Source: Novosphingobium kunmingense
GTDB taxonomy: Bacteria > Pseudomonadota > Alphaproteobacteria > Sphingomonadales > Sphingomonadaceae
Direction of reading: 5' to 3'
Assembly: GCF_002813245.1 (NCBI RefSeq)
Contig: NZ_PHUF01000004.1
Span: forward strand, 498,001-562,000
DNA length: 64,000 bases
Position 1 is the first letter of the stretch. Each line of letters begins with the position of its first letter. The notes beneath the pieces are model-generated. The model made no database searches and was not told the origin of the DNA. It saw only the letters and a program-made list of their open reading frames with translations. Positions 17,582 through 33,741 of the stretch are shown piece after piece. Position numbers and translations under genes: made by a program.

Positions 17582-18742
17582 CTATCCGATGCCGAAGATC
17601 GCTGAACTGACGGTGGGAGAGCCCGGACCACCGGCAAGGAGGCAGGTCTTCGCCCCGGCAACGGGATTGGCCGTTTCCCCCCTGAGCACGCGGATCGCTT
17701 CGATCGCGCAGCCGATGCCATGCACGAAACCGTGCGCGAAATTGCCCCCCGACGTGTTGACCGGCAGCCTGCCTCCATCGGCGATCAGGTTTTCGAAGCG
17801 CACGACCTCCGTCACGTTCTCGTAGGTGCAGAAGCCGTGGTCGATCAGCGAGGCGACGCCCTGGGCGCTGAAGTTCTCGTAAAGCTGGACGACGTCGATA
17901 TCCGCCGGGGTCAGTCCGGCCTGGTCGTAGAGCCGCTGGCGGATCGCGCCGAACCCGGCTGTCGGGTAAAGGTCTTCGCGGTCGTTCTCGAGCAGGTCGC
18001 CCCAGCCCCTTTCGGCGCCCTGGGCCACCGAAAGCAAGGTCACGGGCGGCTTGCGCAGGTCCCTGGCCAGCTCGCTCGAAACGAGCAGCAAGGCTCCCGC
18101 GCCGTCGTTTTCGCGGCTGCAGTCGAACAGGCGGAAAGGCTCTGCGATCCAGCGCGACGTGCGCGCCTCGGCAGCGTCGTATTCGTGCCCGAAGGCAACG
18201 GCTTCGGGGTTGCGGCTGCCGTGATGGTAGGACGCGCGGACAAGCTCCTCGCACACGGAGGTCGGAACGCCGTGATGCTCGAACAGGCGCTGGGCGCGCA
18301 TGGCGCACAACTGTGCCGGCGCGACCATGCCGGCCGAGACCATGTGATCGTTGAGGTGATGCGCCATCACCGCAGTCGAGAGGCGCCCGCTGTTGCCCTC
18401 GACGAGGGCGCGGAACACGACGACGGCCCTGGCCTGCCCGGTGAGGATCGCAGCCGAGGCCAGGCCGAACGCCCCGGCAACGCCGCCGCCGCCGCCGCCC
18501 CAGACCTGCGCCGACCAGTTCAGGTGCTTCATGCCCAGGTCAGGCATCAGGCGCACCGGTTCGTTCTTGTCGTCGCCGTAGGAAACGAAACCATCGATCA
18601 GCGCCGGGTCGAAACCGGCGTCGTTGCAGGCATCGACGATCGCGCTGACCAGAACGCCGCGTTCGGGCAGCGGGGCCGTCCCGCGCTTGTACTGGCGATA
18701 GCCGATCCCGGCCACGGCCGTCAGCCCGCTGGGATTGATCAT
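17582..18742 (-). CDS. Thiolase-fold (SCP2-thiolase/Ltp2-like) protein, no visible nucleophilic Cys
   Basis: A 386-residue thiolase-superfamily protein of the lipid-transfer-protein/SCP-x group. It shows LTAVAGIGYRQYKRG at the start, then DIDVVQLYENFSAQG, VNTSGGNFAHGFVHGIG (the HGxG loop) and CLLAGGPGSPT. Where thiolases carry their nucleophilic Cys, this one has a glycine run (QVWGGGGGGVAGAF), so it is probably not a true thiolase. Ltp2-type steroid retro-aldolases also lack this Cys and need a DUF35 partner, and such a partner is encoded directly upstream with an ATGA overlap (18739-18742). Proposed role: carbon-carbon cleavage of a hydroxyacyl-CoA (inference). Start is the ATG at 18742. 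Confidence 0.85.
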   Translation of the reverse strand: MINPSGLTAVAGIGYRQYKRGTAPLPERGVLVSAIVDACNDAGFDPALIDGFVSYGDDKNEPVRLMPDLGMKHLNWSAQVWGGGGGGVAGAFGLASAAILTGQARAVVVFRALVEGNSGRLSTAVMAHHLNDHMVSAGMVAPAQLCAMRAQRLFEHHGVPTSVCEELVRASYHHGSRNPEAVAFGHEYDAAEARTSRWIAEPFRLFDCSRENDGAGALLLVSSELARDLRKPPVTLLSVAQGAERGWGDLLENDREDLYPTAGFGAIRQRLYDQAGLTPADIDVVQLYENFSAQGVASLIDHGFCTYENVTEVVRFENLIADGGRLPVNTSGGNFAHGFVHGIGCAIEAIRVLRGETANPVAGAKTCLLAGGPGSPTVSSAIFGIG

Positions 18743-19161
18743 GCCACCAGTCTCCACCGCAGCGCGGGAATGTCATGGGTGCCGAAACGTGTCCGGTCGA
18801 TCCGGCCCTCTACCTCGGCCCCGATGCGCAAGCCCTCTTCGGACCCTTCCAGGACGCCGATAAGACGGATCGGCACCTCGGTCAGCGAAACCAGCACGGT
18901 CGTGAACGGACGGTCAAAGGCTTCGGTCCCGGCAAAGGCATGGTGGGTTCGAGTATGGCTGAAAACGGTGCCGGTCAGCGCTCGTTCGACCCATTCGTGG
19001 TCCCACGAACCGCACTCGCCGCAGCGCCAGACAGCGGGCCAGTGCCACGCCCCGCACCCCCGGCAGCGCGGCAGCTTCAGGTGACCGTCGAGCAGAGCAT
19101 CCCAATAGGGCCCTTCGGCGCCCAGCGGACCCGTCGCCGTCGCATAGGAGAAAGCGGCCAT
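18739..19161 (-). CDS. DUF35 OB-fold protein with zinc ribbon (ChsH2-like partner)
   Basis: A 140-residue protein with a rubredoxin-like zinc ribbon (CRGCG at Cys33/Cys36, CGECG at Cys47/Cys50) followed by an OB fold (TGTVFSHTRTHHAF). This is the DUF35/OB-fold acyl-CoA-associated family. In steroid side-chain degradation such domains (ChsH2 C-terminus) bind Ltp2 to form the aldolase. The start is the ATG at 19161, which shares one base with the P450 stop, and the stop overlaps the thiolase-fold gene by four bases. Tight coupling on both sides suggests a stoichiometric complex with the thiolase-fold protein. Confidence 0.87.
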   Translation of the reverse strand: MAAFSYATATGPLGAEGPYWDALLDGHLKLPRCRGCGAWHWPAVWRCGECGSWDHEWVERALTGTVFSHTRTHHAFAGTEAFDRPFTTVLVSLTEVPIRLIGVLEGSEEGLRIGAEVEGRIDRTRFGTHDIPALRWRLVA

Positions 19162-20369
19162 CAGGCGACGGTCCATTCGAGGGGGAGCGATTCCAGGGCG
19201 ATCACGGTCCCGATCCGGAACCCGTGATGCGCGCCTTCCACGGCCCGGAACGAAGGCACGCGCTTGATCCATTCCTCGACCAGGATGCGCATTTCGGTGC
19301 GCGCCAGCGCGTGGCCCAGGCACAGGTGGGGACCCGTGCTGAAATTGTAGTGCGGCATGGCGCCGCGATCGATATCGAAGCGGTCGGGATCGTCCAGCTT
19401 GGCCGGGTCCCGGCCGCTTTGCCACAGGGCGCACAGCACCATTTCGCCTTTGCGGAAGGCGACGCCGTGATCATCGAAATCCTTCACGACAAGGCGAGGC
19501 GTCCCGATGACGCCGAACATCCGCAGACCTTCTTCGGCAAATTTGCCCGCAAGGGAGGGATCGGCGGCGAGGCGGGCCTGCAAGGCCGGGTCGCCGGCAA
19601 GGTGCTGCACCGAAAAACCGGTGACATTCGTGACCGTGTCCATGCCGCCCAGGAACAGGACGAAGCACATCGCGAGGATTTCCTCGTGGCTCAGCCGCCG
19701 TCCTTCGCCCATGTCGACGGTAAGGAAATGCGTCAGCAGGTCCGTCCCCGGATTGTCGCGCCGGTAGTCCAGCAGCTCGTTGAAGATCCCGAAGATCTGC
19801 TGCGAACTCGCCTGGATTTGCTCGCTCGTACGCGCCTTGAAATAGGTGTCGGCAATACTGCGGAAATCGTGCAGCCGTTCGAGCGGCAGGCCCATGACCT
19901 CCATGAACACCGACACCGGAAAGCGTGCGGCCACGTCGTGGATGAAATCGCATTTTCCCTTGTCCGCGACCTCGGCGACGATCTCGGCCGCCATGGCGCG
20001 CATCCTGGGCTCCATTTCGGAGACCGCGCGCGGCGAGAACTTGGGCATGAGGACGTGGCGATACGGCACGTTTTCAGGGGGATCGACGCTGAGAGGGATA
20101 AAGAACGGCGGATTCTCAACCCGCGGGATCTGCATCTCGCGCGCTGAAAAGACCGTCGGGTTCTTGACGATTTCGGCAATCAGGTCGTGGCGCTGTACCA
20201 CCCAGTGTCCACCGTTAAGCGGCGACCAGAAGATGTCCGGAGCCGCCTTGAGGACAGCCGAATAGCTGCCCTGGACATCGTCATCGATGCGCGGATCGGC
20301 ATAAATGTCGAAATCGAACACCTGTTCGGGACGAACGTTGGGCGGAATGACGCGTGCCAGTGTGGCCAT
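19161..20369 (-). CDS. Cytochrome P450
   Basis: Soluble bacterial P450, 402 residues. The I-helix oxygen-binding motif is GGMDT (241-245), the K-helix ExxR is Glu280-Arg283, and the heme loop FSTGPHLCLG carries the thiolate ligand Cys350. No membrane anchor, so it should take electrons from a small ferredoxin; the [2Fe-2S] ferredoxin encoded at 23145-23465 is a candidate donor. No ferredoxin reductase is present in the window. It lies 15 bases after the acyl-CoA synthetase gene and overlaps the DUF35 gene by one base, so hydroxylation and side-chain breakdown appear co-transcribed. Substrate unknown. Confidence 0.94.
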   Translation of the reverse strand: MATLARVIPPNVRPEQVFDFDIYADPRIDDDVQGSYSAVLKAAPDIFWSPLNGGHWVVQRHDLIAEIVKNPTVFSAREMQIPRVENPPFFIPLSVDPPENVPYRHVLMPKFSPRAVSEMEPRMRAMAAEIVAEVADKGKCDFIHDVAARFPVSVFMEVMGLPLERLHDFRSIADTYFKARTSEQIQASSQQIFGIFNELLDYRRDNPGTDLLTHFLTVDMGEGRRLSHEEILAMCFVLFLGGMDTVTNVTGFSVQHLAGDPALQARLAADPSLAGKFAEEGLRMFGVIGTPRLVVKDFDDHGVAFRKGEMVLCALWQSGRDPAKLDDPDRFDIDRGAMPHYNFSTGPHLCLGHALARTEMRILVEEWIKRVPSFRAVEGAHHGFRIGTVIALESLPLEWTVA

Positions 20370-20384
20370 GATCGGGACTTTCGC

Positions 20385-21881
20385 TCAGCGGACCCGCGGA
20401 AGGGTCAGGTGTGCGTCGCGGTATTCGTCGCGCAACGCGGGTTTGGAAATCTTGCCGGTCGCAAGGCGCGGCAGCGGCTCGTCGCGAACGGCGACGTAAC
20501 GGGGCACCTTGTAGTCGGCGAGGCGGCCGTTGCAGTGCGCGATCAGCGCCGCAACATCGATCGGCGCATTCGGATAGAGCGCCACCATGGGTGTTTCCTG
20601 GAACCGGTCGTCGTGCGCGGCAATCACCGCGACTTCCTCCACGCCGGGAAACTCGAGCACGGCGCGTTCGATCTCGGCGGCGGAGATGTTGAGACCGCCC
20701 GATACGATGATGTCCTTGATCCGGTCGATGAAGGTCAGGAGACCGCGTTCGTCCATCACTCCGATATCGCCGCTGTGCAGCCAACCGTCGCGGATTGTTT
20801 CCGCCGTGGCCGCGGGGTTGTTCCAGTAACCGATCATCATGCCCGGCCCGCGGATCAGGATCTCGCCCTCGACCCCCGGGGGCACGTCGTTGCCCCTCGC
20901 ATCGACCACGCGGTGATGGGTGAACATTCCGCCCCAGCCGACCTTTTCCGGAAACTCGGCCGCAAAGCGTTCGGGCATGACAGTGGAATTGCCGCCGGCC
21001 TCGGTCTGGCCATAGGTCTGGCGGATATGGAGGCCCTTGGCGGCCCAGGTCTGGAACAATCTGGGCGTGACCCGCGCGCCGCCCGCGGTCACCATGCGGA
21101 TGTGCGACAGGTCGGCCTCGGCAAACCCTTCGCAGGCCGCGATTCGTTCGAAGAATGCGGGTGCGCCGGCAAAGCTGACGATCGGCTCCTCGACCAGGAT
21201 CTGGAGGAAACGTTCGGCCACGAAGACAGGCTCGAGGTAAAGCGTGCAGCCCAGCACCGAATAGTGGACGACCTGCACCATGCCGGCCGAAGTGGCGAGC
21301 GGCGCGACGATGATCACGCCGCCTCCGTCGCGAAGGACGCCGTCCTCCATCGCCGCGGCCATGGCGTAGTCGCACATCGACCGGTTGGAGAACATCACGC
21401 CCTTGGGCTTGGCCGTCGAACCGCTGGTCGAAATGATCACGACGCAGTCGTCCGGGTAGGGCTCACGCGGTGGAGCGACGGACGCGCCGCCGCGAAGGCC
21501 GTCGACCTCCGCCATGGCGTGAACGGGCACCCCGCAACCGGTGAACTTGCTTGCCTGATCGTCGCCTGCGAAAATGAGGCGCGGGGCATGATCCTGCACG
21601 ATCTCCGCCAGTTCGTGTGCGGTGAAGCGGGTGTTGAGCGGGGCGATGACCGCGCCTGCGCGCATGGCCGCAAAGGCGAGGACGCAATAGTCGATCCCGT
21701 TGGCGGCGCAGGCGTTGACCCGGTCGCCGCGCTCGACCCCAAGGTCGATCAGGCGTGCCGCCACCCGGTCGATCCAGGGCACGAGTTGGCCATAGGTCAC
21801 GCGGTCGCCTCCGAGGACGAGCGCGGGCGTATCGGGCCGGCTCTTGGCCCACCACGAAAGGGCACTGTGGATTGTCAGCAC
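20385..21881 (-). CDS. Acyl-CoA synthetase (AMP-forming ligase), GTG start
   Basis: Class I adenylate-forming enzyme that activates a carboxylic acid to its CoA thioester, 498 residues. Visible motifs are the phosphate loop STSGSTAKPKG, YGQTEAGG, the hinge GWLHSGDIG...FIDRIKD, and the catalytic lysine near the C-terminus (LATGKISKPALR). No ATG precedes the first conserved block, so the start is the GTG at 21881, 14 bases after the Rieske gene stop. The frame stays open far upstream through the Rieske gene, but that part is a different reading frame of the oxygenase and not a fusion. It supplies the CoA ester used by the acyl-CoA dehydrogenases and aldolase of the island (inference). Confidence 0.92.
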   Translation of the reverse strand: MLTIHSALSWWAKSRPDTPALVLGGDRVTYGQLVPWIDRVAARLIDLGVERGDRVNACAANGIDYCVLAFAAMRAGAVIAPLNTRFTAHELAEIVQDHAPRLIFAGDDQASKFTGCGVPVHAMAEVDGLRGGASVAPPREPYPDDCVVIISTSGSTAKPKGVMFSNRSMCDYAMAAAMEDGVLRDGGGVIIVAPLATSAGMVQVVHYSVLGCTLYLEPVFVAERFLQILVEEPIVSFAGAPAFFERIAACEGFAEADLSHIRMVTAGGARVTPRLFQTWAAKGLHIRQTYGQTEAGGNSTVMPERFAAEFPEKVGWGGMFTHHRVVDARGNDVPPGVEGEILIRGPGMMIGYWNNPAATAETIRDGWLHSGDIGVMDERGLLTFIDRIKDIIVSGGLNISAAEIERAVLEFPGVEEVAVIAAHDDRFQETPMVALYPNAPIDVAALIAHCNGRLADYKVPRYVAVRDEPLPRLATGKISKPALRDEYRDAHLTLPRVR

Positions 21882-21895
21882 GTCCGGTGGTCCGT

Positions 21896-23083
21896 TCAGT
21901 TCGCCAGCACGCGATCCAGGATCTCGTTGTACAGCGGGATCGTCGCCTCGAGCCCGGAGTAGACGACGTCGTCGATCGCTCCGGTGGCAAGACCGGCGTG
22001 CGACAACTGCGCTGCGTAGAAATCCTCTCCGCCAAAGACCGAGACAATCATCTCGTAACTTTTGCGGTAGAGTTCGGCGCCCTTCGGATTGTCGGGCGGG
22101 CGACGGGTCAGCATGAAGTAGTCGACCGTCGTCTTGTCCACTGCCGTCGGCATCAGGAACATCACCGAGATGTAATAGGGGCTGGTGACCACGACGCAGT
22201 TCGGGAACACGTTGTAGGCGTGGGTCACCGACGCGTGAATGTTCTCGCCCGGGATATCGAGGCAGTCCGGAGTAAAGTTCATCTTCCCGGAAATCTGCCG
22301 GATGTTGAGCCCCAGCGTATCCACCACGTTGGGGACGTCGGCAAACAGCGGGCCCACCGTGCTCGCGTGGAGGCGCTGCACGTGATAGCCTTCGAGGAAT
22401 GGTTCGAGGACCAGCTTCCAGTTGGCGTCGAGGTGAAACTGCTTGTGCCCGTAAACGTGCAGGCCGGGCAGTTCGAACGCATCGAAATCGGCCGCCAGCT
22501 GATCGTCGACGCCTGAAAAGTCGGGCGCGGCATGGCGGTCGAGCATGGCCCAGATGATCCCGCCCGCTTCGCGCGAAGGCAGTTCGGCAAGGCCGCGCGA
22601 CGACTTGTCGAGATTGGCAAAGGTTTCCGGGCGCGCCGCGCCGATCAGCTTGCCGTCGGTCGAGAAGGTCCACGCGTGATAGGGGCAGGTCAACCTGTTG
22701 CCCTTGGCAACATCGCAGCCGTCGATCAGCTTGGCGCCCTTGTGGGTGCAGGCGTTGAGGAACACGTGCGACACGCCGTTCTTGTCGCGGGTCACCAGCA
22801 AGGGAATCCCGTAGCCGTCATGGGCGACCGCGCTGCCGGGATCGGCGATGCGGGCCGAAACCGTGATCGGCACGGCCTGTTTGCGGAACAGCCGTTGCTG
22901 CTCGAGCTGGAAGAAATCCTCCCCGGTAAAGGTCGAGACCGGTCGCCGCGCCTCGATGGTCGGGACCGTCGCCGCGTCATGCGGGGCGATGCGCCGGATC
23001 GCGCGCTGCTGGCTTTCGCTCAACATGTCGAGCGTTTGCAGAAGGGCTCGTTCGGTCGGTGCAGCGGTGGCTGTGGCGTTCAT
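21896..23083 (-). CDS. Rieske non-heme iron oxygenase, catalytic alpha subunit
   Basis: A 395-residue Rieske oxygenase. The [2Fe-2S] ligands are Cys112-x-His114 and Cys133-x2-His136 (ACTHKG, CPYHAW). The mononuclear iron site is EPFLEGYHVQRLH with His234 and His239. The bridging residue between the two centres is Glu231 rather than the usual Asp, a feature known from the carnitine monooxygenase CntA and related enzymes. No beta-subunit gene is nearby, so it is probably a homo-oligomeric alpha-only enzyme. It begins a tight minus-strand operon with the CoA synthetase, P450, DUF35 and thiolase-fold genes, and a 21-base dyad sits 43-63 bases ahead of its ATG. Confidence 0.92.
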   Translation of the reverse strand: MNATATAAPTERALLQTLDMLSESQQRAIRRIAPHDAATVPTIEARRPVSTFTGEDFFQLEQQRLFRKQAVPITVSARIADPGSAVAHDGYGIPLLVTRDKNGVSHVFLNACTHKGAKLIDGCDVAKGNRLTCPYHAWTFSTDGKLIGAARPETFANLDKSSRGLAELPSREAGGIIWAMLDRHAAPDFSGVDDQLAADFDAFELPGLHVYGHKQFHLDANWKLVLEPFLEGYHVQRLHASTVGPLFADVPNVVDTLGLNIRQISGKMNFTPDCLDIPGENIHASVTHAYNVFPNCVVVTSPYYISVMFLMPTAVDKTTVDYFMLTRRPPDNPKGAELYRKSYEMIVSVFGGEDFYAAQLSHAGLATGAIDDVVYSGLEATIPLYNEILDRVLAN

Positions 23084-23125
23084 GGAATCGATCCTCTTTC
23101 CCTGCGGGCGAATCTATCAGCCCTT

Positions 23126-23146
23126 TTATCTATTGCCAATAGATTT
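23126..23146. promoter_or_regulatory. Proposed TetR operator 1, upstream of the Rieske operon
   Basis: TTATCTA-N7-TAGATTT with a palindromic spacer; the core ATCTATTG-C-CAATAGAT (23128-23144) is a perfect dyad. It overlaps the ferredoxin stop codon and lies upstream of the Rieske start. One of five matching sites in the island. Confidence 0.68.
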
Positions 23147-23465
23147 ATCGCTGCGACGGCGGCAGCTCGATTTCGATGCCGTCAAGCGCCTCGCTCATCA
23201 CGATCTGGCACGACAGGCGCGAATTGGGCCGGGGATGGCGCGTGTATTCGACCATCTCCGCTTCCATTTCACTGGGGGGTTCGAGTGTGGAGAGCCACGC
23301 CTCGGCTACGTAGACCTGACAGGTGGCGCAAACCATCGAGCCGCCGCATTCAGCCTCGATCCCGTCTATACCGGCGGCCTTGGCGCTCGCCATCAGGGAC
23401 AGGCCCGGCGATGCGTCGAACGCCCCTTCGATCCCGTCTGCCGTGCGATATCTTACGCGAACCAT
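23145..23465 (-). CDS. [2Fe-2S] ferredoxin, putidaredoxin/adrenodoxin type
   Basis: A 106-residue plant/adrenodoxin-fold ferredoxin with ligands Cys40, Cys46, Cys49 and Cys86 (C-x5-C-x2-C spacing, ECGGSMVCATC). It should transfer electrons to the P450 and possibly to the Rieske oxygenase, both encoded just downstream on the same strand. A reductase gene is missing from the window, so electrons must come from a reductase encoded elsewhere. It is transcribed divergently from the GMC oxidoreductase gene; the 21-base dyad at 23505-23525 lies between them. Confidence 0.94.
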   Translation of the reverse strand: MVRVRYRTADGIEGAFDASPGLSLMASAKAAGIDGIEAECGGSMVCATCQVYVAEAWLSTLEPPSEMEAEMVEYTRHPRPNSRLSCQIVMSEALDGIEIELPPSQR

Positions 23466-23504
23466 CCTGCCATCTCCCGTTACCGGGACAGTTGCGCAGG
23501 CCGA

Positions 23505-23525
23505 TTATCTATGTCAATTAGATAA
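23505..23525. promoter_or_regulatory. Proposed TetR operator 2, ferredoxin/GMC divergent promoter
   Basis: TTATCTA-N7-TAGATAA, both arms perfect. It sits in the 91-base gap between the divergent ferredoxin (start 23465) and GMC oxidoreductase (start 23557) genes, so one site could control both. Confidence 0.72.
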
Positions 23526-23556
23526 TGCCGCAACAAGACGGCGGGTGGAGAGCGGA

Positions 23557-25164
23557 ATGGCCGGTTTCGATTATATCATCGTAGGTTCTGGCGCGGCGGG
23601 ATCGGTTCTGGCCTATCGCCTGTCCGAGGATCCGGCGAACCGCGTACTCGTTCTCGAGGCCGGCCCGGCCGATCGCCATCCGCTGATCCACATGCCCAAG
23701 GGTATCGCCAAGGTCATGGCCGACCCCTCACACGTCTGGGCGCACGAGAGCCGGCCCGAAGCTTCGACGGCCAACAAGCCCGAATACTGGGTCCGCGGGC
23801 GTGTCCTGGGAGGGTCGACCTCGATCAACGGCATGATGTACGTTCGCGGCATGCCGGCCGATTTCGACGGGATCGCCGAACTGTCGAGCGACGACTGGTC
23901 GTGGGAGCACATCGGCAGGGCCTATGCCGCGCTGGAGAATCACGAACTGGGTGCTGCCGCGACGCGCGGCAATTCGGGTCCGATCCACATCACCTTGCCA
24001 ACGCACCGCGACCGGCTCAGCGATGCGCAGGTTGCCGCCGGTCACGCGCTCGGCTGGGGCAGCAAGCGCGACATGAACGAGCCCGACGATGCCGTGGCGA
24101 TCGGCTATGCCCCGCGCACGGTCTACAAGGGCAAGCGCGAAAGCGCGGCGAAGGCGTTCCTGAAGCCGGCCATGCGCCGCCCCAACCTGACCGTGATGAC
24201 CAATGCCGTGGCCGACAAGGTGCTGTTCGAAGGCAAACGCGCCATAGGCGTCCGCGTCGTCGCCGATGGCGCGGTGCGGGACATCCTGACCGACGGCGAA
24301 GTGATCCTGTGCGGCGGCGCCCTGGCCAGCCCTGCCATCCTCGAACGCTCCGGCGTGGGCGATCCGGCGCTCTTGTCCGGGCTTGGCATTCCCGTTGTCC
24401 AGGCCAATGCACAGGTCGGCGAAAACCTGATCGAACATCGCGCGATACTGATCCAGAGCCGGCTCAGGCAGGACATTTCGCACAACCGCGAGTACGGGGG
24501 CTGGCGTCTGGTCAAGAACGCGCTGAAGTACTTCCTCGGCATGGACGGCCTGATGTCGGCCGCATCCTACGAGATCGTCGGCTGGCTCAAGACCGATCCG
24601 GGCCAGAATCGGCCCAACGCCCAGATCCTGGTCGCGCCCTTCAGCTTCAACATGGACGATCGCACCCAGGTGGAGAAGGTGCCGGGAATGCACGTCACCG
24701 CCTACACCCTGCGCCCGACTTCGCGCGGTGCGATCCACATAACGACGACCGATCCCGATGCACCCGCCGGCCTGTCCGCCAACCACCACGCCACCGAAAG
24801 GGACCGCGCCGAGATGGTCGCGCTGGTTCGCGCGGTTCGCACCTATTTGGCAACCGAACCGCTGGCCTCGCTGATCGCAGAGGAAACCTCGCCCGGGCCG
24901 CAATATCGCACCGACAAGGAAATCCTTGCGGCCTACGACCGGTTCGGCACCTGCGGCTATCACGCGGTCGGCAGCTGCCGCATGGGCAATGACCCGGATT
25001 CGGTCGTCGACCCGCAACTTCGGGTCCGGGGCGTTGAGAACCTGCGCGTCATGGACACGGCGATCATGCCGGTCATTCCTTCCGGCAACACCAACGGCCC
25101 GACCATGGCCATGGCCTGGCGCGCCGCCGACATCATCCTGCGCGACCGCACCGCGCGCGGGTGA
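23557..25164 (+). CDS. GMC-family FAD alcohol oxidoreductase (choline dehydrogenase-like)
   Basis: A 535-residue FAD-dependent alcohol dehydrogenase of the glucose-methanol-choline family. The N-terminal dinucleotide motif is IIVGSGAAGSVLAYRLSE, followed by GRVLGGSTSINGMMYVRG (GMC signature 1) and a second signature near LCGGALASPAIL. The catalytic His is in CGYHAVGSCRMG, with the partner Asn in SGNTNGPTMA. GGAG lies about six bases before the ATG at 23557, so the longer open frame is not used. It would oxidise an alcohol to an aldehyde, which the aldehyde dehydrogenase at 31067 could take further. Its TGA directly abuts the stop of the convergent acyl-CoA dehydrogenase (TGATCA, no spacer). 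Confidence 0.93.
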   Translation: MAGFDYIIVGSGAAGSVLAYRLSEDPANRVLVLEAGPADRHPLIHMPKGIAKVMADPSHVWAHESRPEASTANKPEYWVRGRVLGGSTSINGMMYVRGMPADFDGIAELSSDDWSWEHIGRAYAALENHELGAAATRGNSGPIHITLPTHRDRLSDAQVAAGHALGWGSKRDMNEPDDAVAIGYAPRTVYKGKRESAAKAFLKPAMRRPNLTVMTNAVADKVLFEGKRAIGVRVVADGAVRDILTDGEVILCGGALASPAILERSGVGDPALLSGLGIPVVQANAQVGENLIEHRAILIQSRLRQDISHNREYGGWRLVKNALKYFLGMDGLMSAASYEIVGWLKTDPGQNRPNAQILVAPFSFNMDDRTQVEKVPGMHVTAYTLRPTSRGAIHITTTDPDAPAGLSANHHATERDRAEMVALVRAVRTYLATEPLASLIAEETSPGPQYRTDKEILAAYDRFGTCGYHAVGSCRMGNDPDSVVDPQLRVRGVENLRVMDTAIMPVIPSGNTNGPTMAMAWRAADIILRDRTARG

Positions 25165-26289
25165 TCAACCCGCCGCGCGCCGGCGAAGGTGGAACCCCTC
25201 GCTGCCGAACGAATGCTCGATCACCGTCGCGCGCTTGAAAAAATGCCCGATCGCCAGCTCGTCGGTCATGCCCATGCCGCCGTGGATCTGAACCGCATTC
25301 TGCCCGACAAAGCGGCACGCCTGCGCCACGGTCAGCCTGGCCGCGCTGGCCGCCCTTCCTCTCACGTCGGCCGGTTCGTCCAGCGTCTGGCACGCAAGAA
25401 GTGCCGCCGATCGCGCGAGTTCGAGCTGCAGGTGCATGTCGACCATCCGGTGCTGCAGGGCCTGGAACGAGCCGATCGTCTGGCCGAACTGCTCGCGCTG
25501 TCTGGCATAGGCCACAGTCTCCTCGACCAGCCTTTCAAGAATGCCGCAGGCTTCGGCGCTGGCCGCGGCAATCGCGCGGTCACGCCACTCCTCGAGCAAG
25601 GCGAGACCGTCGCCCTCCACCCCGATCAGGGCTTCGCGCGGCACTTCGACCCCGTCCAGGGAAACATCGGCGGCCCAGCGTTCGTCGAGCATCCGGTAAG
25701 GCCGAAGCTCCAGCCCCTGAACATCAGCCGCAACCACGAACAGCGACAGGCCCGTCGCGTCGCCCGCCTGTCCCGCGTGCCGAGCGGCAACCAGCAGGTG
25801 CGTGGCCCAGGGCGCGCCGACCACGATCTGCTTGGCGCCGTCGATCTGCCAGCCGGCGTCGGTATCGCGCGCAGAGCAGGCGATGGCGCGAAAGTCGTCG
25901 CGCACGCCGTCCTCGCCAATGGCGAGCGCGATGCGCACCGAACCGGCTGCGATCCCCTGCAGCAGGGCGTCTGCCGCCGGGGATTCGCTTTGCGCGAGCA
26001 ACGGCGCGGCCTGTAAGAGCGTTTCCGCCACCGGTTCGGGCGCCAGTGCGCGGCCGACAGATTCCATCACCACCATTTGCTCAACGCCGCCGCCGAAGCC
26101 GCCCAGGCGATCGGGCAGTCCGACCGCCAGCACCCCAAGTTGCGACGCCAGGTCCTGCCAGACCTGCGGCCGCCAGCCGTCGCCCTGGCGCAGGTCGAGC
26201 TTGTCCGCGCCGAAGGCCCGACCGGTCTCGAGGAAGCGGTCGAGAGACGCCTTGAACTGGCGCTGCTCATCGTTCAGTTCGAATTCCAT
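25165..26289 (-). CDS. Acyl-CoA dehydrogenase, probable non-catalytic subunit
   Basis: A 374-residue acyl-CoA dehydrogenase-family protein (start MEFELNDEQRQF at 26289). The C-terminal FAD and dimer motifs are present (RQREQFGQTIGSFQALQHRM, QIHGGMGMTDELAIGHFFKRA). The usual catalytic-Glu positions are not kept: the segment matching YEGT of MCAD reads HSFGSEGFHL, and the helix that carries the base in isovaleryl-CoA dehydrogenase reads EEWRDRAIAAAS. It is divergent from a second acyl-CoA dehydrogenase that keeps a candidate base. Such pairs form heterotetramers in actinobacterial steroid side-chain oxidation (ChsE1-ChsE2 type). An alpha2beta2 enzyme is therefore likely, but inferred. Confidence 0.88.
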   Translation of the reverse strand: MEFELNDEQRQFKASLDRFLETGRAFGADKLDLRQGDGWRPQVWQDLASQLGVLAVGLPDRLGGFGGGVEQMVVMESVGRALAPEPVAETLLQAAPLLAQSESPAADALLQGIAAGSVRIALAIGEDGVRDDFRAIACSARDTDAGWQIDGAKQIVVGAPWATHLLVAARHAGQAGDATGLSLFVVAADVQGLELRPYRMLDERWAADVSLDGVEVPREALIGVEGDGLALLEEWRDRAIAAASAEACGILERLVEETVAYARQREQFGQTIGSFQALQHRMVDMHLQLELARSAALLACQTLDEPADVRGRAASAARLTVAQACRFVGQNAVQIHGGMGMTDELAIGHFFKRATVIEHSFGSEGFHLRRRAAG

Positions 26290-26353
26290 GGCCTCGTTTG
26301 CATCCCTTCCGTTTCCCGGATCAAGCGCAAAGGGTTCGCCGGGTTTGACCTCA

Positions 26354-26374
26354 TTATCTAATGGTATAAGATAA
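26354..26374. promoter_or_regulatory. Proposed TetR operator 3, between the two acyl-CoA dehydrogenases
   Basis: TTATCTA-N7-AAGATAA. It lies in the 112-base gap between divergent acyl-CoA dehydrogenase genes, 28 bases before the ATG at 26402. Because the TetR gene follows that plus-strand gene, this site would also give autoregulation. Confidence 0.66.
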
Positions 26375-26401
26375 ACTGGCAAGCGAAGAGAGGGTGCTGC
26401 A

Positions 26402-27613
26402 ATGGAACTGTCGTGGAGCAAGGCCGACCTGGAGTTTACCGACGACGTCCGCCGTTTCCTTGACGACAACCTCGACGACGACCTGCGCGCCGCGGGTCGC
26501 TGGATGACCAGCGTCTACGCCGATCACGACGCGTCGCTGGAATGGCAGCGTCGGCTCCATGCCAGGGGATGGGCGGCGCCTTCGTGGCCGGTCGAATACG
26601 GCGGCGGCGGGTTCAGCGTAACCCAGCGCTACATCTTTGCGCGCGAATCGGCCCGGGCCGGCGCACCGCCGACCTCGCCCATGGGCATCGCGATGTGCGG
26701 CCCGGCGCTGATCGGGCACGGCACCGACGAACAGAAGGCGCACTTCCTGCCCCGCATCCTCACCGGCGAACACTTCTGGTGCCAGGGCTATTCCGAACCC
26801 CATGCGGGATCGGATCTCGCCCCGCTCAAGATGCGGGCAGTGCGCGACGGCGATCACTTCGTCTGCACCGGCACCAAGATCTGGACGACCCATGCCAATG
26901 TTGCGAACTGGATCTTCTGTCTGGTGCGTACGGGCCAGTTCGACCGGCCGCAGTTGGGCATAACGTTCCTGCTCATCCCGATGGATAGCCCCGGCGTAAC
27001 CGTGCAGCCGATCATCATGACGTCGGGCGAGCATATCCAGAACCAGATCTTCTTCGACGAGGTGCGGGTGCCGGTTGCCAATGCGGTCGGCGCGATCGAC
27101 GACGGCTGGACGGTCGCCAAGTACCTGCTCGAGTTCGAGCGTGGCGGCAGCGCCTATGCTCCCGGACTTCAGGTGCGGCTCGACCGCATCCGGCAGCTGG
27201 CGGCCGAAGGAGCCGATCCGCCGGGCAACGACCCCGTTTTCGCTGCGAGGTTGGCCGCCGCACAGGTGCGAATCGATATCCTCGAAGTCTACGAGTTCCG
27301 GATGCTGACCGCCGCCGCGCGGGGTGGCCGACCGGGGATCGGCGGCTCGGCAATGAAGATCTTCGGAACCGAATTGAGCCAGCATCTGACCGAACTCGCC
27401 ATCGAGGCAGCAGGTCCCTACGCACTGACGTTCCAGCCCGACGCGGGTGCGGCTGGCGGTCCCAACCGGATACCCCACCAGGCCGGCTGGCAGGGCCCGC
27501 GCGAAGCCGCGATCGCGCCGCTCAAGTACTTGAACGACCGGGCCGGTTCAATCTATGCCGGTTCGAACGAGATCCAGCGCAACATCATCGCAAAGGCCCA
27601 GTTGGGGCTCTAA
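26402..27613 (+). CDS. Acyl-CoA dehydrogenase, probable catalytic subunit
   Basis: A 403-residue acyl-CoA dehydrogenase (FadE17/FadE26-like in layout). It shows WCQGYSEPHAGSDLAPLKMRA and KIWTTHANVANW for the active-site and FAD contacts, plus the terminal IYAGSNEIQRNIIAKAQLGL. At the MCAD catalytic position (YEGT) there is Ala instead of Glu. Glu246 in LLEFERGG lines up with the base of isovaleryl-CoA dehydrogenase and is the better candidate. It is divergent from the dehydrogenase at 25165-26289 and followed after 15 bases by the TetR gene, so enzyme and regulator appear co-transcribed. Confidence 0.92.
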   Translation: MELSWSKADLEFTDDVRRFLDDNLDDDLRAAGRWMTSVYADHDASLEWQRRLHARGWAAPSWPVEYGGGGFSVTQRYIFARESARAGAPPTSPMGIAMCGPALIGHGTDEQKAHFLPRILTGEHFWCQGYSEPHAGSDLAPLKMRAVRDGDHFVCTGTKIWTTHANVANWIFCLVRTGQFDRPQLGITFLLIPMDSPGVTVQPIIMTSGEHIQNQIFFDEVRVPVANAVGAIDDGWTVAKYLLEFERGGSAYAPGLQVRLDRIRQLAAEGADPPGNDPVFAARLAAAQVRIDILEVYEFRMLTAAARGGRPGIGGSAMKIFGTELSQHLTELAIEAAGPYALTFQPDAGAAGGPNRIPHQAGWQGPREAAIAPLKYLNDRAGSIYAGSNEIQRNIIAKAQLGL

Positions 27614-27628
27614 CCGACAGGACAAGCC

Positions 27629-28267
27629 GTGCCCGAAAGCAAGACCAAGACCCGCGCGGGACGGCCGCTCAAGCCCCTGATCACCCGCGATGCTGCGGTG
27701 CGCGCCGCGATCAAGGTGATCGATCGCGACGGGCTCGAGGCGCTGAGCGTTCAGGCGGTCGCGCGGGCGATGAAGGTGTCTGCACCCTCGCTCTACTATC
27801 ACTTCAAGGACAAGGACGAGCTGCTCGAACTCGTCGCGCTCGAACTGCTGCGCGAAGTGGGTGCCAATGCCGACAAGGACGCGTGCTGGGAAGACCGCAT
27901 GGTCGGGCTTTCGTTGGCGACCCGCCGCGTGATCCTGCGCCACGCCAACGCCGCGCCGTTGATGCTGCGCTTCTTCCCGCGCCGGCTGATGCTGTCGGCC
28001 TACGAACACGCGCTGGCCGATTGCCCGTTCCCGGCCCAGCATCACATCGTCATCAGCGAGGCGATCGAGAAGCTGACCTATGGCTCGTCGCTGTTCGCGG
28101 CTGCTGCCGCGACCTATCACACCCCGGCCATCCCCGCCTTCGATGTCGAGCGCTTTCCCTTGTTCGCCCGCGCCATCTCAAGCGGCCCGGGGGACGAGGA
28201 GGCGATCTTCGTCGAATCGCTGCGCAGCCTGATCGACGGCTTTCGCGCCCGCTACGGCCCCAAATAG
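27629..28267 (+). CDS. TetR-family regulator, proposed controller of the island
   Basis: A 212-residue TetR-type repressor. The N-terminal helix-turn-helix is at about residues 30-55 (LEALSVQAVARAMKVSAPSLYYHFKDKDELLEL), with the hallmark YYHF. The C-terminal part looks like a TetR_C ligand domain. The start is a GTG at 27629, with AGGA a few bases upstream. It is the only TetR gene in the island, and TetR proteins typically bind dyads of 15-21 bases. The five TTATCTA-N7-TAGATAA sites in the island are the natural targets, including one ahead of its own operon. The inducer would be a pathway intermediate, perhaps a CoA thioester (inference). Confidence 0.92.
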   Translation: MPESKTKTRAGRPLKPLITRDAAVRAAIKVIDRDGLEALSVQAVARAMKVSAPSLYYHFKDKDELLELVALELLREVGANADKDACWEDRMVGLSLATRRVILRHANAAPLMLRFFPRRLMLSAYEHALADCPFPAQHHIVISEAIEKLTYGSSLFAAAAATYHTPAIPAFDVERFPLFARAISSGPGDEEAIFVESLRSLIDGFRARYGPK

Positions 28268-28268
28268 A

Positions 28269-28294
28269 ACGGGCGGCCATTGCTGGCCGCCCGT
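28269..28294. terminator. Probable bidirectional terminator hairpin
   Basis: ACGGGCGGCCA-TTGC-TGGCCGCCCGT forms a perfect 11-base-pair stem with a 4-base loop, 2 bases after the TetR stop and 27 bases from the stop of the convergent TonB receptor gene. The T-tract is weak on both sides. Confidence 0.75.
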
Positions 28295-28320
28295 CCGGTT
28301 TGCGGATCGGGAGAGACCGA

Positions 28321-30741
28321 TCAGAACTTGAAGCCGACTTCCACGAACACTTCGCGCGGATTTTCGACGAAGGCCGACATGTCGGCCAGCAGTCCGGTGC
28401 CCGTCGTCCCCGTTCCGGTACCGCCGGCGAAGGGAATGTCGTTGGCGGCCGTCACGATCAGCTTGTTGGTCAGATTTCGGCCGATGACCGCGACGCTCCA
28501 GCGATCCTCGGGTCCCTTCAGGCGGATGCTGGCGTCGAACTTGGTAAAGGCCGGCTGGATCGAATCCGGCCGCAGCGTATCGGTGTAGTTGTAGCTCGAG
28601 GTGTGGGCCATGTCGCCCGACAGCACCAGCCGGATATCGCTCGACGAAATCGGCATTTCATACGTGAAGCCGAGCGAGCCGCCGAAACGCGGTGCCTTGG
28701 GCGGCGTGCGACCGCCGTAATCCTGGCTGGTATAGGCGCCGGCTGCCAGCAGCAGGTTGCAACCCTGGGCCACGGTCTGACCGCCGTAGCACTGCCCGAC
28801 GTAGTCGTAGAACTGGGCGTGGTTGTAGGCTGCGGCACCGCGGAGGCTGAAACCGGGCAACGACAAAACGCGCCAGGTGAAGTCGGCTTCGATGCCCTTG
28901 GTGCGCAGCGTGCCGGCGTTGGCCACGACCTGGCCGATCGTGACCGGATCGAAGTTCTGCACCTGAAGGTCGTTGTAGTCATAATAGTAGGCAGTCGTGT
29001 TGAACGACAGGTCGCCGTCCAGCAGGATCGCCCGCATCCCCACTTCGCCGCCCTTCGCGGTTTCAGAGCCATAGCTGCCGGCGGCAACGGTGGCCGCGGG
29101 GGTCAGCGTCTGCGAAATGTTGAAGCCGCCCGACTTGAAGCCCTGCTTGTAGGCCGCGTAGAAGGTCAGGTCGCGCGACGGCTTGTAGCGCAGGGTGACT
29201 TCGGGCGACAAATTGTTGTCGCGGAAGCGGTCGTCGAGGCGGATGCCACTCGGGAAGAACGCCGCGAAGCCCAGATGGGCCGGCAGCGACACCTGATAGG
29301 AATCGCGCGCTTCGAAGCTGTAACGCGCGCCCCCGGATAGCTCGAACTGTTCGCCGAGGTTCGCCGTCACCTGGAGGAAGGCCGACATCGAATCCGAGGA
29401 AAAGCCATCGTCGCGCTTGAAGGTCGTATAGGTGTTGGTGACCGGGCTGATCGGCACCGGGAAGATATAGGCATCGGTGTTGAACACGAACTTGCCGTGT
29501 GAATAGAACATCCCGAACAGCGCGTTTATGGGTGCATCGAACTTGGTCTGAAAGCGCAGCTCCTCACCGTACTGTTCGTAATCGGCAAGCTGGCTGAAGG
29601 TCGCCGGATAGGCTTCGCCCGCGACGTTGTTGAGGTCGGTCTGGCGGAAGCGGTAATAGGAGGTGATCGAGGTCACATCCATCACTTCGGTGTTGATCGT
29701 GCCGGTCAGGATTCCGAAGCCGGACTTGAGCCGGGCGTACATGTGGCCATCGCCCGCATAGCGATAATTGGCCGCCGCGACCTGGGTCGGGATTGTCGAA
29801 CTGTCGGACCGGCCATCGACCTTGCAGTCCGCGTTGGGGCTCGGCGGAACGCCGTTCATGGTTGCCGGCGTGGTCCGCCCACCGCCGCAGATACGTTCCA
29901 GGATGTCGGTCGGTCCGCCATCCTTCTGGTCGGTGTAGCCTGTCTTCAGGACGAAGTTGACCGTATCGCTGGGATGCCAGTCGAGCGTCAGTCGGCCGCT
30001 CAGGGTGCGTCCGCCGCCGCGGCGTTCCGCATTGCGGTGCCGCGCCATGCCAAGCGGATCGAGATAGGTCTTGGCCGCGGTGTTGGTTAGCGCGCCTTCG
30101 CTGTCCGAGGCGCGAAACGCGAGGCGCGCGCCCAACGTGTCGCTGACAGGACCGGAAACATAGCCTTCGGCGTACTTCTCGCGCGCCTCGAAGCCATAAC
30201 CGCCGCGCAGCGCCGCCTCGAACCGGTTGCCGGGACCGGCCGTGATGACGTTGATCAGGCCGCCGGTTGTGTTCTTGCCGAAGAACAGCGCCTGCGGACC
30301 CTTGAGCACTTCGACCTGCTGCAGATCATACTGGCTGAGGTTGATTTCGCGCCCGCGGCTCATCGGCATGCCATCGACGACGAAGGATACCGACTGGTCG
30401 AAGCCGGCGCTCAGTGCGGTCGAACCGACGCCGCGCAGGAAGATGCTGGCCGACGAACCCGAGGCCGCGCGCCCCGCGATGAGGGTAGGCACCTGCGTCG
30501 CGATGTCGGCAAAGCGCGTCATCGACTTGTCCTGAAGCTCCGCACCGCTCAGCGCGGTAATCGCGACAGGCGCGTCGACCAATCGCTCGTCGCGGCGGCG
30601 GGCGCTGACGATGATCTCGGTCTCGCTCGAGGCGGTGGTCTCGTCGGCCGGCTGCGGTTCCGCCGACTGGGCCCAGGCCGCAACCGGGGTGAACAGCGAC
30701 GTTGACAGTGCAAACAGCGCGATCTTCAGACGCGACGACAT
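28321..30741 (-). CDS. TonB-dependent outer membrane receptor
   Basis: An 806-residue TonB-dependent receptor that would import the island's substrate across the outer membrane. A signal peptide ends at about AAWAQ, followed by a TonB-box-like EIIVSARRR. The plug domain contains LRGVGSTALSAGFDQSVSFVVDGMPM and QVEVLKGPQALFFGKNTTGG, and a 22-strand-type barrel ends in FVEVGFKF. The start is the ATG at 30741 with GGAGG 6 bases upstream, although the frame is open further. It is divergent from the aldehyde dehydrogenase gene. The nearest of the proposed operators (30846-30866) is about 105 bases ahead of its ATG. Sphingomonad receptors of this type often serve large or hydrophobic aromatic and terpenoid substrates. 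Confidence 0.94.
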   Translation of the reverse strand: MSSRLKIALFALSTSLFTPVAAWAQSAEPQPADETTASSETEIIVSARRRDERLVDAPVAITALSGAELQDKSMTRFADIATQVPTLIAGRAASGSSASIFLRGVGSTALSAGFDQSVSFVVDGMPMSRGREINLSQYDLQQVEVLKGPQALFFGKNTTGGLINVITAGPGNRFEAALRGGYGFEAREKYAEGYVSGPVSDTLGARLAFRASDSEGALTNTAAKTYLDPLGMARHRNAERRGGGRTLSGRLTLDWHPSDTVNFVLKTGYTDQKDGGPTDILERICGGGRTTPATMNGVPPSPNADCKVDGRSDSSTIPTQVAAANYRYAGDGHMYARLKSGFGILTGTINTEVMDVTSITSYYRFRQTDLNNVAGEAYPATFSQLADYEQYGEELRFQTKFDAPINALFGMFYSHGKFVFNTDAYIFPVPISPVTNTYTTFKRDDGFSSDSMSAFLQVTANLGEQFELSGGARYSFEARDSYQVSLPAHLGFAAFFPSGIRLDDRFRDNNLSPEVTLRYKPSRDLTFYAAYKQGFKSGGFNISQTLTPAATVAAGSYGSETAKGGEVGMRAILLDGDLSFNTTAYYYDYNDLQVQNFDPVTIGQVVANAGTLRTKGIEADFTWRVLSLPGFSLRGAAAYNHAQFYDYVGQCYGGQTVAQGCNLLLAAGAYTSQDYGGRTPPKAPRFGGSLGFTYEMPISSSDIRLVLSGDMAHTSSYNYTDTLRPDSIQPAFTKFDASIRLKGPEDRWSVAVIGRNLTNKLIVTAANDIPFAGGTGTGTTGTGLLADMSAFVENPREVFVEVGFKF

Positions 30742-30845
30742 AGCTTCCTCCCAATTCCGGCGCCTGTGGCAGCCGACAATCGCCGTTCGCCTTGTGCGAT
30801 CCGGTCGATCCGATCTCATCGTTCGGCGGCAAATTTCACCGATCG

Positions 30846-30866
30846 TTTTCTAATGTCAATAGATAA
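30846..30866. promoter_or_regulatory. Proposed TetR operator 4, TonB receptor promoter
   Basis: TTTTCTA-N7-TAGATAA; one arm perfect, the other with one change. Located about 105 bases upstream of the TonB receptor ATG (30741). Confidence 0.66.
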
Positions 30867-31001
30867 TGAACGACACTGCCTCGACGAAGGGACTGGCGAG
30901 GACGTTTGTATATGATTTGGCGTCATTTTTTTACTCGTCCAATTATCAACTAACCCTAGTTTTGCGCAGCCTCACGACAACCCCGATCACCCCTTGCACG
31001 A

Positions 31002-31022
31002 TTATCTACGTTCATTAGAATA
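31002..31022. promoter_or_regulatory. Proposed TetR operator 5, aldehyde dehydrogenase promoter
   Basis: TTATCTA-N7-TAGAATA; left arm perfect, right arm with two changed bases. Located 44 bases upstream of the ATG at 31067. Confidence 0.62.
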
Positions 31023-31066
31023 AGTGTCGGCACGTGAACCGTGAGAAGAATCGGAAGAGGAACCCC

Positions 31067-32554
31067 ATGCTCGACTCGTCATTGGCCGTAACGGCCCATC
31101 CCGACCGCCTGTTCATCGGGGGGCGGTGGCAGACGGTTGCCGGAACCAGCCGCCTTCGCCCGGTCAACCCGGCTACCGAAGCGCCCTTGCAGGACATCGT
31201 CGCGGCCGGGCCGGTCGAGGTCGAGGCGGCAGTCGCGGCAGCGCGGAAAGCCTTCGACGACGGCCCCTGGCCCCGGCTGCCGGCATCGGCGCGCGCAGAG
31301 GCGATGCGCAAGCTTTCGGCCGCGCTGGTGCGGCGGGGGACCGCACTTGACAGTTGCTGGTTGAGCCAGGTCGGCGTCCCCGCCTGGATGGCCACAGGGG
31401 CCAGCGCCGGCGCGGCCGGCCTGCTCGACTACTACGCCGCCATGGCGGAGAGCTATCCGTTCGAAGACGTTCGGCCCGCGCAGGGCATGGTCTGCAAGAC
31501 CGCCGTCGTGGTGAACGAACCGGTCGGCGTGGTCGCCGCCATCGCGCCGTGGAATGGGCCGCTGGCGTCCCTGCTGGTCAAGCTGGCCCCGGCGCTCGCC
31601 GCCGGTTGCACGGTCATCCTCAAGCCCTCGCCCGAAACGCCGCTCGAAGCCTTCCTGCTGGCCGAGGCGGCGGAAGAAGCGGACCTGCCTCCCGGCGTGG
31701 TCAACCTGCTTCCCGCCGACCGCGAGGTTTCGGACCTGCTCGTTCGCCACCCCGGAGTGGACAAGGTGGCCTTTACCGGATCGAGCAGCGTCGGCATGCA
31801 CATCGCCCAGATCTGCGCCTCGCGCATGGCGCGCTACACGATGGAACTTGGCGGCAAATCGGCCGCCATCGTCCTCGATGACTACGACCCGGCGGGCCTC
31901 GGCCCGGCGCTCGCCCCGCTGGTCACCCTGCTGTGCGGGCAGGCCTGCATCAACTTCAGCCGCATCCTGGTGCCTCGCTCGCGGCACGACGACTATGTCG
32001 AAAGTCTGGCAGCGGCGATGGCAGCCACACGGGTCGGCGATCCGCTGGCCGCCGATACGCAGATGGGGCCACTTGCGATGGAGCGCCACCATGCCAAGGT
32101 CATGGACTATGTTGCCCGCGGCAGGGCCGAAGGCGCGCGGATCGTGACCGGCGGCGAGCGACCTGGCGGCCTCGATCGCGGCTACTTCATCCAGCCCACC
32201 GTGTTCGACCGCGTCGACAACGCCATGACCATCGCCCAGGAGGAGATCTTCGGCCCGGTCACGGCGGTCATCCCCTACGACACCGAGGAAGAGGCGATCG
32301 CCATCGCCAACGCGAGCGACTTCGGCCTGTCGGGCGGCGTCTACACCCACGACACCGATCGCGCCTATGCGATCGCGCGGCGCATACGGACCGGCACCTT
32401 CACCCAGAACGGGCGGGAATACGATCTCACCAACCCGTTCGGCGGCTTCAAGAAATCCGGCGTCGGGCGCGAAGGCGCGCGCGAGGGCCTCGAAGCCTTT
32501 ACCGAGGTCAAGACCGTCTTCCTGCCCCACGTGCCGTCCGCGCTGGCGCAATGA
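31067..32554 (+). CDS. NAD(P)-dependent aldehyde dehydrogenase
   Basis: A 495-residue aldehyde dehydrogenase superfamily enzyme oxidising an aldehyde to its acid. The Asn of the oxyanion site is in APWNGP, the general base Glu in MELGGKSA, and the catalytic Cys is Cys294 (GQACINFSR). EEIFGPV and the C-terminal NPFGGFKKSGVGREG complete the pattern. GGAAGAGGAA lies just upstream of the ATG at 31067, so this start is preferred over an in-frame upstream start at 31034. Its stop overlaps the CoA-transferase start by four bases (ATGA). In the island it could follow the GMC oxidoreductase, giving the acid that is then activated with CoA. Confidence 0.94.
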   Translation: MLDSSLAVTAHPDRLFIGGRWQTVAGTSRLRPVNPATEAPLQDIVAAGPVEVEAAVAAARKAFDDGPWPRLPASARAEAMRKLSAALVRRGTALDSCWLSQVGVPAWMATGASAGAAGLLDYYAAMAESYPFEDVRPAQGMVCKTAVVVNEPVGVVAAIAPWNGPLASLLVKLAPALAAGCTVILKPSPETPLEAFLLAEAAEEADLPPGVVNLLPADREVSDLLVRHPGVDKVAFTGSSSVGMHIAQICASRMARYTMELGGKSAAIVLDDYDPAGLGPALAPLVTLLCGQACINFSRILVPRSRHDDYVESLAAAMAATRVGDPLAADTQMGPLAMERHHAKVMDYVARGRAEGARIVTGGERPGGLDRGYFIQPTVFDRVDNAMTIAQEEIFGPVTAVIPYDTEEEAIAIANASDFGLSGGVYTHDTDRAYAIARRIRTGTFTQNGREYDLTNPFGGFKKSGVGREGAREGLEAFTEVKTVFLPHVPSALAQ

Positions 32555-33741
32555 CCAGCGCCGCGAACGTCGCGGGCGACGGGGCTCCTGCCATGCTCGA
32601 GGGCATCCGCGTCCTCGACCTGACAACGGTCGTGTTCGGACCCTACTGCACGCAGACGCTGGCCGACCTTGGCGCCGACGTGATCAAGGTGGAAAGCCCC
32701 GGATCGGGTGACGCCTTTCGCTGGTCGGCCAGGGCCGCGGCCACGCCGGGCATGTCGCCGGGCTTCATGGCCTTCAACCGGGGCAAGCGATCGCTCGCGC
32801 TCGACCTCAAGCAGGAAGACGACCTCGCCCGGATGAAGGACCTTCTGGTCAAGGCCGACGTGTTCGTCGTCAACGTGCGCGGCAAGGCGCTCGAGCGGCT
32901 CGGTCTCGATTACGAAGCGGTGCGCGCGATCAATCCCGATATCGTCTACGTCCACTGCGTCGGATTCGGACAGGACGGCCCCTATGCGGACCTGCAGGCC
33001 TATGACGACGTGATCCAGGCCGCAACGGGCACGGCCACGCTGCTGCCGCGCGTCGACGGCGACGCCCGCCCGCGCTATTTGCCCTCGCTGATCGCCGACA
33101 AGGTGGCCGGGCTCCATGCCGCCTATGCCTCGCTGGCCGCGCTGTTACATCGCCAGCGCACCGGCGAAGGGCAGCGGGTCGAGGTCCCGATGTTCGAAGC
33201 GTTCTCGCACTTCATGCTCAGCGAGCACCTGGGAGGGCGCAGCTTCACGCCCGCGCTCGGCCCTGCGGGCTATGCCCGCCAACTCGACCCCGACCGCCAG
33301 CCCTTTCCGACCAGCGACGGGCACATCAGCATCGTCGCCTATACCGACGACGCCTGGAGCCGGATCTTCGCGCTGCTGGACGAGCCTGACTTCCTGGCCG
33401 AGCCCCGTTTCGCCACCGCGCGGGACCGCGTGCGCAATCAGGCCGCGCTCTACCAGGGGATGGCGGCGCTGACCCCCCGCTTCACGACCGAAGACCTGCT
33501 TGGCCGCTGCGCCGCGGCCCAGATCCCCGCCCAGGCGGTGCGCGATCTTGATGCCATGCTGGACGACCCGCATCTGAACGGGGTCGATTTCTTTCGCCGC
33601 CGCCAGCATCCCAGCGAAGGCGGCTATGTGGAAATGCGTGCCCCCGTCGCCTTTTCGGCACGGCCCGGAATCGACCCATTGCCCCCGCCGCGGCTGGGCG
33701 AACACGCTGATGCCCGATGGAACGGCCAGCCATCCGGCTGA
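32551..33741 (+). CDS. CaiB/BaiF-family (family III) CoA-transferase
   Basis: A 396-residue class III CoA-transferase, moving CoA between carboxylic acids. The family pattern is clear: LEGIRVLDLTTVVFGPYCTQTLADLGADVIKVE at the N-terminus, FMAFNRGKRSLALDL, and VGFGQDGPYADLQAYDDVIQAATG around the region of the catalytic Asp. It is translationally coupled to the aldehyde dehydrogenase through the ATGA at 32551. Together with the AMP-forming ligase in the same island it gives a second route to the CoA ester, perhaps exchanging CoA between product and new substrate (inference). It ends shortly before a convergent tRNA gene. Confidence 0.93.
   Translation: MTSAANVAGDGAPAMLEGIRVLDLTTVVFGPYCTQTLADLGADVIKVESPGSGDAFRWSARAAATPGMSPGFMAFNRGKRSLALDLKQEDDLARMKDLLVKADVFVVNVRGKALERLGLDYEAVRAINPDIVYVHCVGFGQDGPYADLQAYDDVIQAATGTATLLPRVDGDARPRYLPSLIADKVAGLHAAYASLAALLHRQRTGEGQRVEVPMFEAFSHFMLSEHLGGRSFTPALGPAGYARQLDPDRQPFPTSDGHISIVAYTDDAWSRIFALLDEPDFLAEPRFATARDRVRNQAALYQGMAALTPRFTTEDLLGRCAAAQIPAQAVRDLDAMLDDPHLNGVDFFRRRQHPSEGGYVEMRAPVAFSARPGIDPLPPPRLGEHADARWNGQPSG

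Follow-up and report, generated by a model that had tools for sequence, protein, structure and literature searches.

The stretch analyzed here (the window) comprises 64,000 nucleotides of the Novosphingobium kunmingense genome (contig NZ_PHUF01000004.1, positions 498,001 to 562,000) and holds a catabolic island of genes from 15597 to 33741 that adjoins a tRNA (33801-33872), the sole Rfam match. The AtuA gene is the last of a co-directional run starting at the Rieske promoter, and a TetR-family regulator is encoded behind one of two acyl-CoA dehydrogenases (Table 1). Because the P450 is nearest to CYP101J2 and P450cam, the thiolase nearest to the Ltp2-type 6ok1, and an AtuA is present, the enzymes may be taken as a suggestion of catabolism of a cyclic terpenoid or its acid. 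Abscisic acid was also considered as a substrate, since it is degraded by both Novosphingobium and Rhodococcus, and was discarded as nothing links it to the island. Elsewhere in the window, an open frame of 3427 codons (3777-14060, minus strand) has a coding-like composition and possibly encodes a very large repetitive protein.

Table 1. Island genes and dyad sites in window coordinates; changes are counted against TTATCTA-N7-TAGATAA, and PWM is the score with the foreign-site weight matrix.
Feature	Position	Strand	Changes	PWM	Remarks
AtuA-family protein	15597..17396	-			PF07287; without own dyad
Ltp2/steroid-aldolase-like thiolase	17582..18757	-			Best PDB match 6ok1, lipid-transfer protein
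OB-fold partner of thiolase	18754-19155	-			OB_ChsH2_C
CYP101-like cytochrome P450	19161..20369	-			Best PDB matches CYP101J2, CYP101D, P450cam
AMP-binding (acyl-CoA synthetase-like, ACSL) enzyme	20385..21884	-			PF00501
Rieske oxygenase	21896..23083	-			NCBIfam and PDB matches; first gene of run to AtuA
2Fe-2S ferredoxin	23145..23465	-			PF00111
GMC oxidoreductase	23557..25164	+			PF00732, PF05199
Acyl-CoA dehydrogenase ACADa	25165..26289	-			Pfam
Acyl-CoA dehydrogenase ACADb	26402..27613	+			Pfam; first gene of TetR operon
TetR-family regulator, 212 aa	27629..28267	+			15 bp after ACADb; PF00440 E 3e-13, PF02909 E 1.2e-6; proposed repressor
TonB-dependent receptor	28321..30741	-			NCBIfam
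Aldehyde dehydrogenase (ALDH)	31067..32554	+			NCBIfam
CoA-transferase family III	32551..33741	+			PF02515
Dyad 1, TTATCTATTGCCAATAGATTT	23126..23146		2	36.0	Candidate operator of Rieske-ACSL-P450-OB-thiolase-AtuA run; faces start 23083 (-)
Dyad 2, TTATCTATGTCAATTAGATAA	23505..23525		0	28.5	Candidate operator common to ferredoxin and GMC oxidoreductase; faces starts 23465 (-) and 23557 (+)
Dyad 3, TTATCTAATGGTATAAGATAA	26354..26374		1	28.1	Candidate operator common to ACADa and ACADb-TetR operon; faces starts 26289 (-) and 26402 (+)
Dyad 4, TTTTCTAATGTCAATAGATAA	30846..30866		1	27.7	Candidate operator of TonB receptor; faces start 30741 (-)
Dyad 5, TTATCTACGTTCATTAGAATA	31002..31022		2	23.1	Candidate operator of ALDH-CoA-transferase operon; faces start 31067 (+)
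Dyad-like site, TTATCAACTAACCCTAGTTTT	30943..30963		4	13.6	Between dyads 4 and 5; weak, doubtful

A pattern search of the window recovered exactly the five dyads that the first-pass annotation had listed, with the same positions, zero to two changes, and a 7-base spacer in five of five; no further match was found in the window at up to three changes (0.04 expected by chance), and none of 100 shuffles reached five dyads. The placement of the dyads in or adjoining promoter gaps was likewise reproduced: they are confined to the non-coding 4.8% of the island, save for 2 bases of the ferredoxin stop codon (23145-23147) that are overlapped by dyad 1. Seven start codons are faced by the dyads at distances of about 28 to 105 bp, and the seven transcription starts of the earlier reading are to be understood as seven gene starts.

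The specificity of the motif was assessed with sites from other genomes. A weight matrix (PWM) built from 84 foreign sites, with no window site included, ranked exactly the five dyads first. The site at 30943-30963 came next, its score well above background (the following score was 5.6). Upstream of AtuA no dyad was found, as claimed previously: the 185-bp gap scores no site, and the best PWM score in 17350-17600 is -7, compared with 23-36 for the five sites. In the rest of the 3.5-Mb genome, the pattern search returned a single match at up to two changes (C5:135926, with two) and six more at exactly three changes; the former falls within a 257-aa ORF and was therefore rejected as an operator, being most likely a chance match. 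When a sequence model trained on 54 foreign sites was applied to the whole genome, its seven matches with E no greater than 10 all fell on dyads 1-4; applied to the window alone, it also recovered dyad 5 (E 0.057), which the genome-wide search had missed. The genome scan that the first-pass annotation had proposed therefore brought to light no dozens of unrelated copies, either by pattern or by model.

The earlier statement that the dyads sit in the right place for transcription starts can be made more precise, since most of them contain a -35 or -10 hexamer. At dyad 1, the Rieske promoter (23139-23111, minus strand) places its -35 box TTGGCA in the spacer, followed after 17 bp by TAGATT as the -10 box. 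Dyad 3 is crossed from both sides, by TTGACC-16-TAAGAT toward ACADb-TetR (plus strand) and by TTGCCA-18-GATAAT toward ACADa (minus strand); its right arm leaves the palindrome (AAGAT) at the -10 position, a departure that is conserved in six of the foreign loci described below. The spacer of dyad 4 contains TTGACA as a -35 box toward TonB, and a by-eye reading gives a possible TTGCAC-16-TAGAAT promoter through dyad 5, while GMC and ferredoxin have no clear promoter. An independent promoter scan of 23000-31200 found four sigma70-like promoters, all four overlapping dyads (1.2 expected). More broadly, it is often the spacer that provides the -35 box (TTGNCA). A spacer starting with TTG toward the gene was seen in 25 gene-facing dyads, mostly of Rieske, ligase, and TonB genes; in 13 of these 25, an A2/T6 -10-like hexamer follows after 17 bp, compared with at most three at any other spacing, and the set of sites pointing away from the gene is no true control for this count because many such sites face a neighbouring divergent gene.

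To place the motif in a wider context, 80 loci around TetR relatives were fetched by a peptide pattern including the recognition helix APSLY[YH]HF. Conservation of the recognition helix in this sample is partly selected, since the search pattern contained the helix; the DNA motif was not selected. The ATCTA-N7-TAGAT core (at least 9 of 10 positions) occurs 66, 41, and 36 times in the classes of at least 54%, 40-53%, and below 40% TetR identity, respectively, some of the loci being adjacent to or overlapping one another on a single contig, whereas eight permuted half-sites occur only 0-4, 1-12, and 0-4 times each. Among spacer lengths around these relatives, only 7 stands out as a strong peak. 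The symmetrised logo reads WWWATCTAWTGNCAWTAGATWWW. The association spans TetR identities down to about 36%, into Gammaproteobacteria and Actinomycetota, and the gene types behind the dyads are those of the window (GMC, Rieske, ligase, ferredoxin, TonB, ALDH, acyl-CoA dehydrogenase, and tetR). Where tetR has a separate promoter, a dyad is often found upstream of it. Several loci at 40-47% TetR identity have no dyad, and around the remote relative in genome G342 (34%) none was found within 20 kb. In locus L040, the genes from OB to TonB are arranged almost as in the window. Its orthologous gaps preserve the dyads at nearly every base, even at the deviating positions, between flanks that have diverged: the 21-bp core of dyad 1 is invariant, and dyad 4 is identical down to its deviating T. 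Dyad 2 is kept in L040, L064, and L049, and the ALDH homologue is preceded by dyads in L042, L044, L045, and L049.

Within the family, 398 genomes were sampled, and a TetR relative of at least 57% identity was present in seven of them, the N. kunmingense genome counted. The pattern WWATCTA-N7-TAGATWW was present in all seven, compared with five of the other 391 (Fisher 2.7e-12); as a motif common to the targets, rare elsewhere, and co-occurring with the regulator, it behaves as expected of one regulon. Ten further genomes in the sample belong to the same genus and have neither the TetR relative nor the dyad, which suggests that the island was gained or lost as one unit. Two of the five dyad-bearing genomes without a close TetR belong to a single genus (g25) that shows a reversed control pattern just as often as the dyad, and no TetR relative was found in the 16-kb stretches around the dyads at the four of five that were checked. 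In L122 (genome G334), the isolated dyad at 8001 precedes a TonB receptor and has two acyl-CoA dehydrogenase homologues (43%) nearby; the 16-kb stretch encodes no relative of TetR.

The island TetR carries a TetR_N helix-turn-helix domain (PF00440, 49.8 bits, cut-off 24) and the C-terminal domain PF02909 (28.8 bits, cut-off 21), and its predicted model (pLDDT 80) has the all-helical TetR fold, with a TM of 0.7 to TetR structures. By predicted domain and fold it is thus a member of the TetR family rather than a tetracycline repressor, as its score against the tetracycline-resistance family PRK13756 is 63.6 bits, well below the cut-off of 265.

Combined, these results make it very probable that the TetR-family repressor encoded at 27629-28267 uses the five dyads as its operators and silences the island. 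Since the palindrome travels with the repressor through dozens of bacteria and covers promoters, the dyads would almost certainly serve as its docking sites; the sequence data strongly support binding of the dyads by the island TetR, the case being weakest for the lowest-scoring dyad, at 31002. The computational basis consists of the sites themselves, their genome-wide specificity, the co-occurrence with the TetR clade, and their conserved placement, both at promoters and at tetR itself. In the proposed mechanism, a TetR dimer would sit on each ATCTA-N7-TAGAT palindrome, covering the -35 box in the spacer at Rieske, TonB, and probably ferredoxin, and the -10 region in an arm at ACADa, ACADb-TetR, and probably ALDH, and would block the start of RNA polymerase. 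The island (TonB uptake, oxygenases, CoA ligase, acyl-CoA dehydrogenases, thiolase, AtuA, ALDH, and CoA-transferase) would stay off until TetR is released, presumably by the island substrate or a CoA intermediate, and TetR would limit its own operon through the 26354 site. Steric repression and this presumed negative autoregulation are proposed because promoters overlap the dyads, including that of ACADb-TetR.

Some TetR-family proteins are activators, and the island TetR could in principle activate from the dyads or act dually; this is unlikely, as the dyads overlap -35 or -10 hexamers, the classic position of a repressor, and repression rather than activation is predicted from this arrangement. 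It is slightly harder still to credit that the dyads are real operators bound by a regulator encoded elsewhere, with TetR a bystander of the island: the genome does hold 18 TetR_N matches, but TetR is the only regulator recognised in the island, the dyad tracks its clade over genomes and phyla, and in many loci with a separate tetR promoter the dyad stands at that promoter. The -35- and -10-like hexamers within the dyads would also fit mere promoter elements, or RNA hairpins acting as terminators or attenuators, with no repressor bound; this reading is very improbable because a promoter needs no strict palindrome with exactly 7 bases between its arms, the sequence model finds no dyads in the rest of the genome, and the terminator scan does not list them. 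Chance recurrence in AT-rich intergenic gaps, where these AT-rich dyads do lie, is refuted for practical purposes by the low expectation and the shuffles, by the near absence of permuted dyads of equal composition around TetR relatives, and by the foreign-site ranking.

The proposed TetR-type repressor of the five dyads can be compared with several known systems. For TetR(B/D), tetO operators are palindromic, overlap promoters, and serve autoregulation, an arrangement that the island resembles, although autoregulation there is presumed. The fold is the same (Foldseek 1qpi, E 5.5e-7), and PRK13756 is the closest curated family; however, the island TetR is only about 20-25% identical, its operator is different from and longer than tetO, and the island has several catabolic targets and no efflux gene. 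AtuR of Pseudomonas, from acyclic terpene utilisation, is also a TetR-family repressor of a terpene cluster with AtuA, but its operators, two 13-bp repeats AGCAAGCGCTTGG/CCAAGCGCTTGCT (PMC9973270), are unrelated to ATCTA-N7-TAGAT, and AtuA in the island is without an operator of its own. An AtuR-type operator AGCAAGCGCTTGG before atuA was thus rejected, as the five dyads differ in sequence and none precedes AtuA. EdcR, the estradiol repressor of Caenibius tardaugens, is likewise a sphingomonad TetR-family repressor of a catabolic cluster; the palindrome proposed for it covers the -10 box and is conserved in part at the promoter of EdcR itself (PMC8700777). The EdcR operator TnnCnnTACnAnTnGTAnnGnnA (PMC8700777) is not the island dyad, its TAC/GTA core being absent from the dyads and from their logo, and the C-terminal domain cited for EdcR is PF16859 (PMC8700777), compared with PF02909 in the island TetR. 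Rha04620 of Rhodococcus RHA1 (PDB 2G7G) is among the nearest solved relatives (27% identity), and neither its function nor its operator was found in the literature searched. The plasmid collection yielded no close relative of the island TetR, and no report of the dyad motif or the gene cluster was found in the literature searched, which covered few subscription papers. Local control of a catabolic cluster by a TetR repressor is well known as a kind of system; the regulon and the wide conservation of its operator are new.

For an uncharacterised catabolic island, one predicted repressor, five candidate operators, and seven gene starts would provide a cheap and specific handle. The operator is conserved over a wide bacterial range, which makes it a means of locating additional pathway genes, and TetR is a candidate biosensor part for the hydrophobic compound that releases it. 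The chances appear about even that the operator code ATCTA-N7-TAGAT is fixed in one TetR clade from sphingomonads to Gammaproteobacteria to Nocardia, Rhodococcus, and Gordonia (identity to about 36%), traveling with a mobile catabolic set (P450, Rieske oxygenase, CoA ligase, Ltp2-like thiolase, and acyl-CoA dehydrogenases), so that the motif defines an undescribed cyclic-terpenoid pathway; if true, it could serve as a finder of that pathway. Two further observations concern individual loci. On contig CAILBC010000027.1 (L049, L055, and L084), a region of about 60 kb contains several TetR paralogues of the clade, and dyads and related catabolic genes lie close to each of them. Just downstream of tetR, Actinomycetota loci such as L095 and L106 have further dyads that precede a neighbouring gene weakly similar to acyl-CoA dehydrogenases, and actinobacterial regulons may therefore include other genes.
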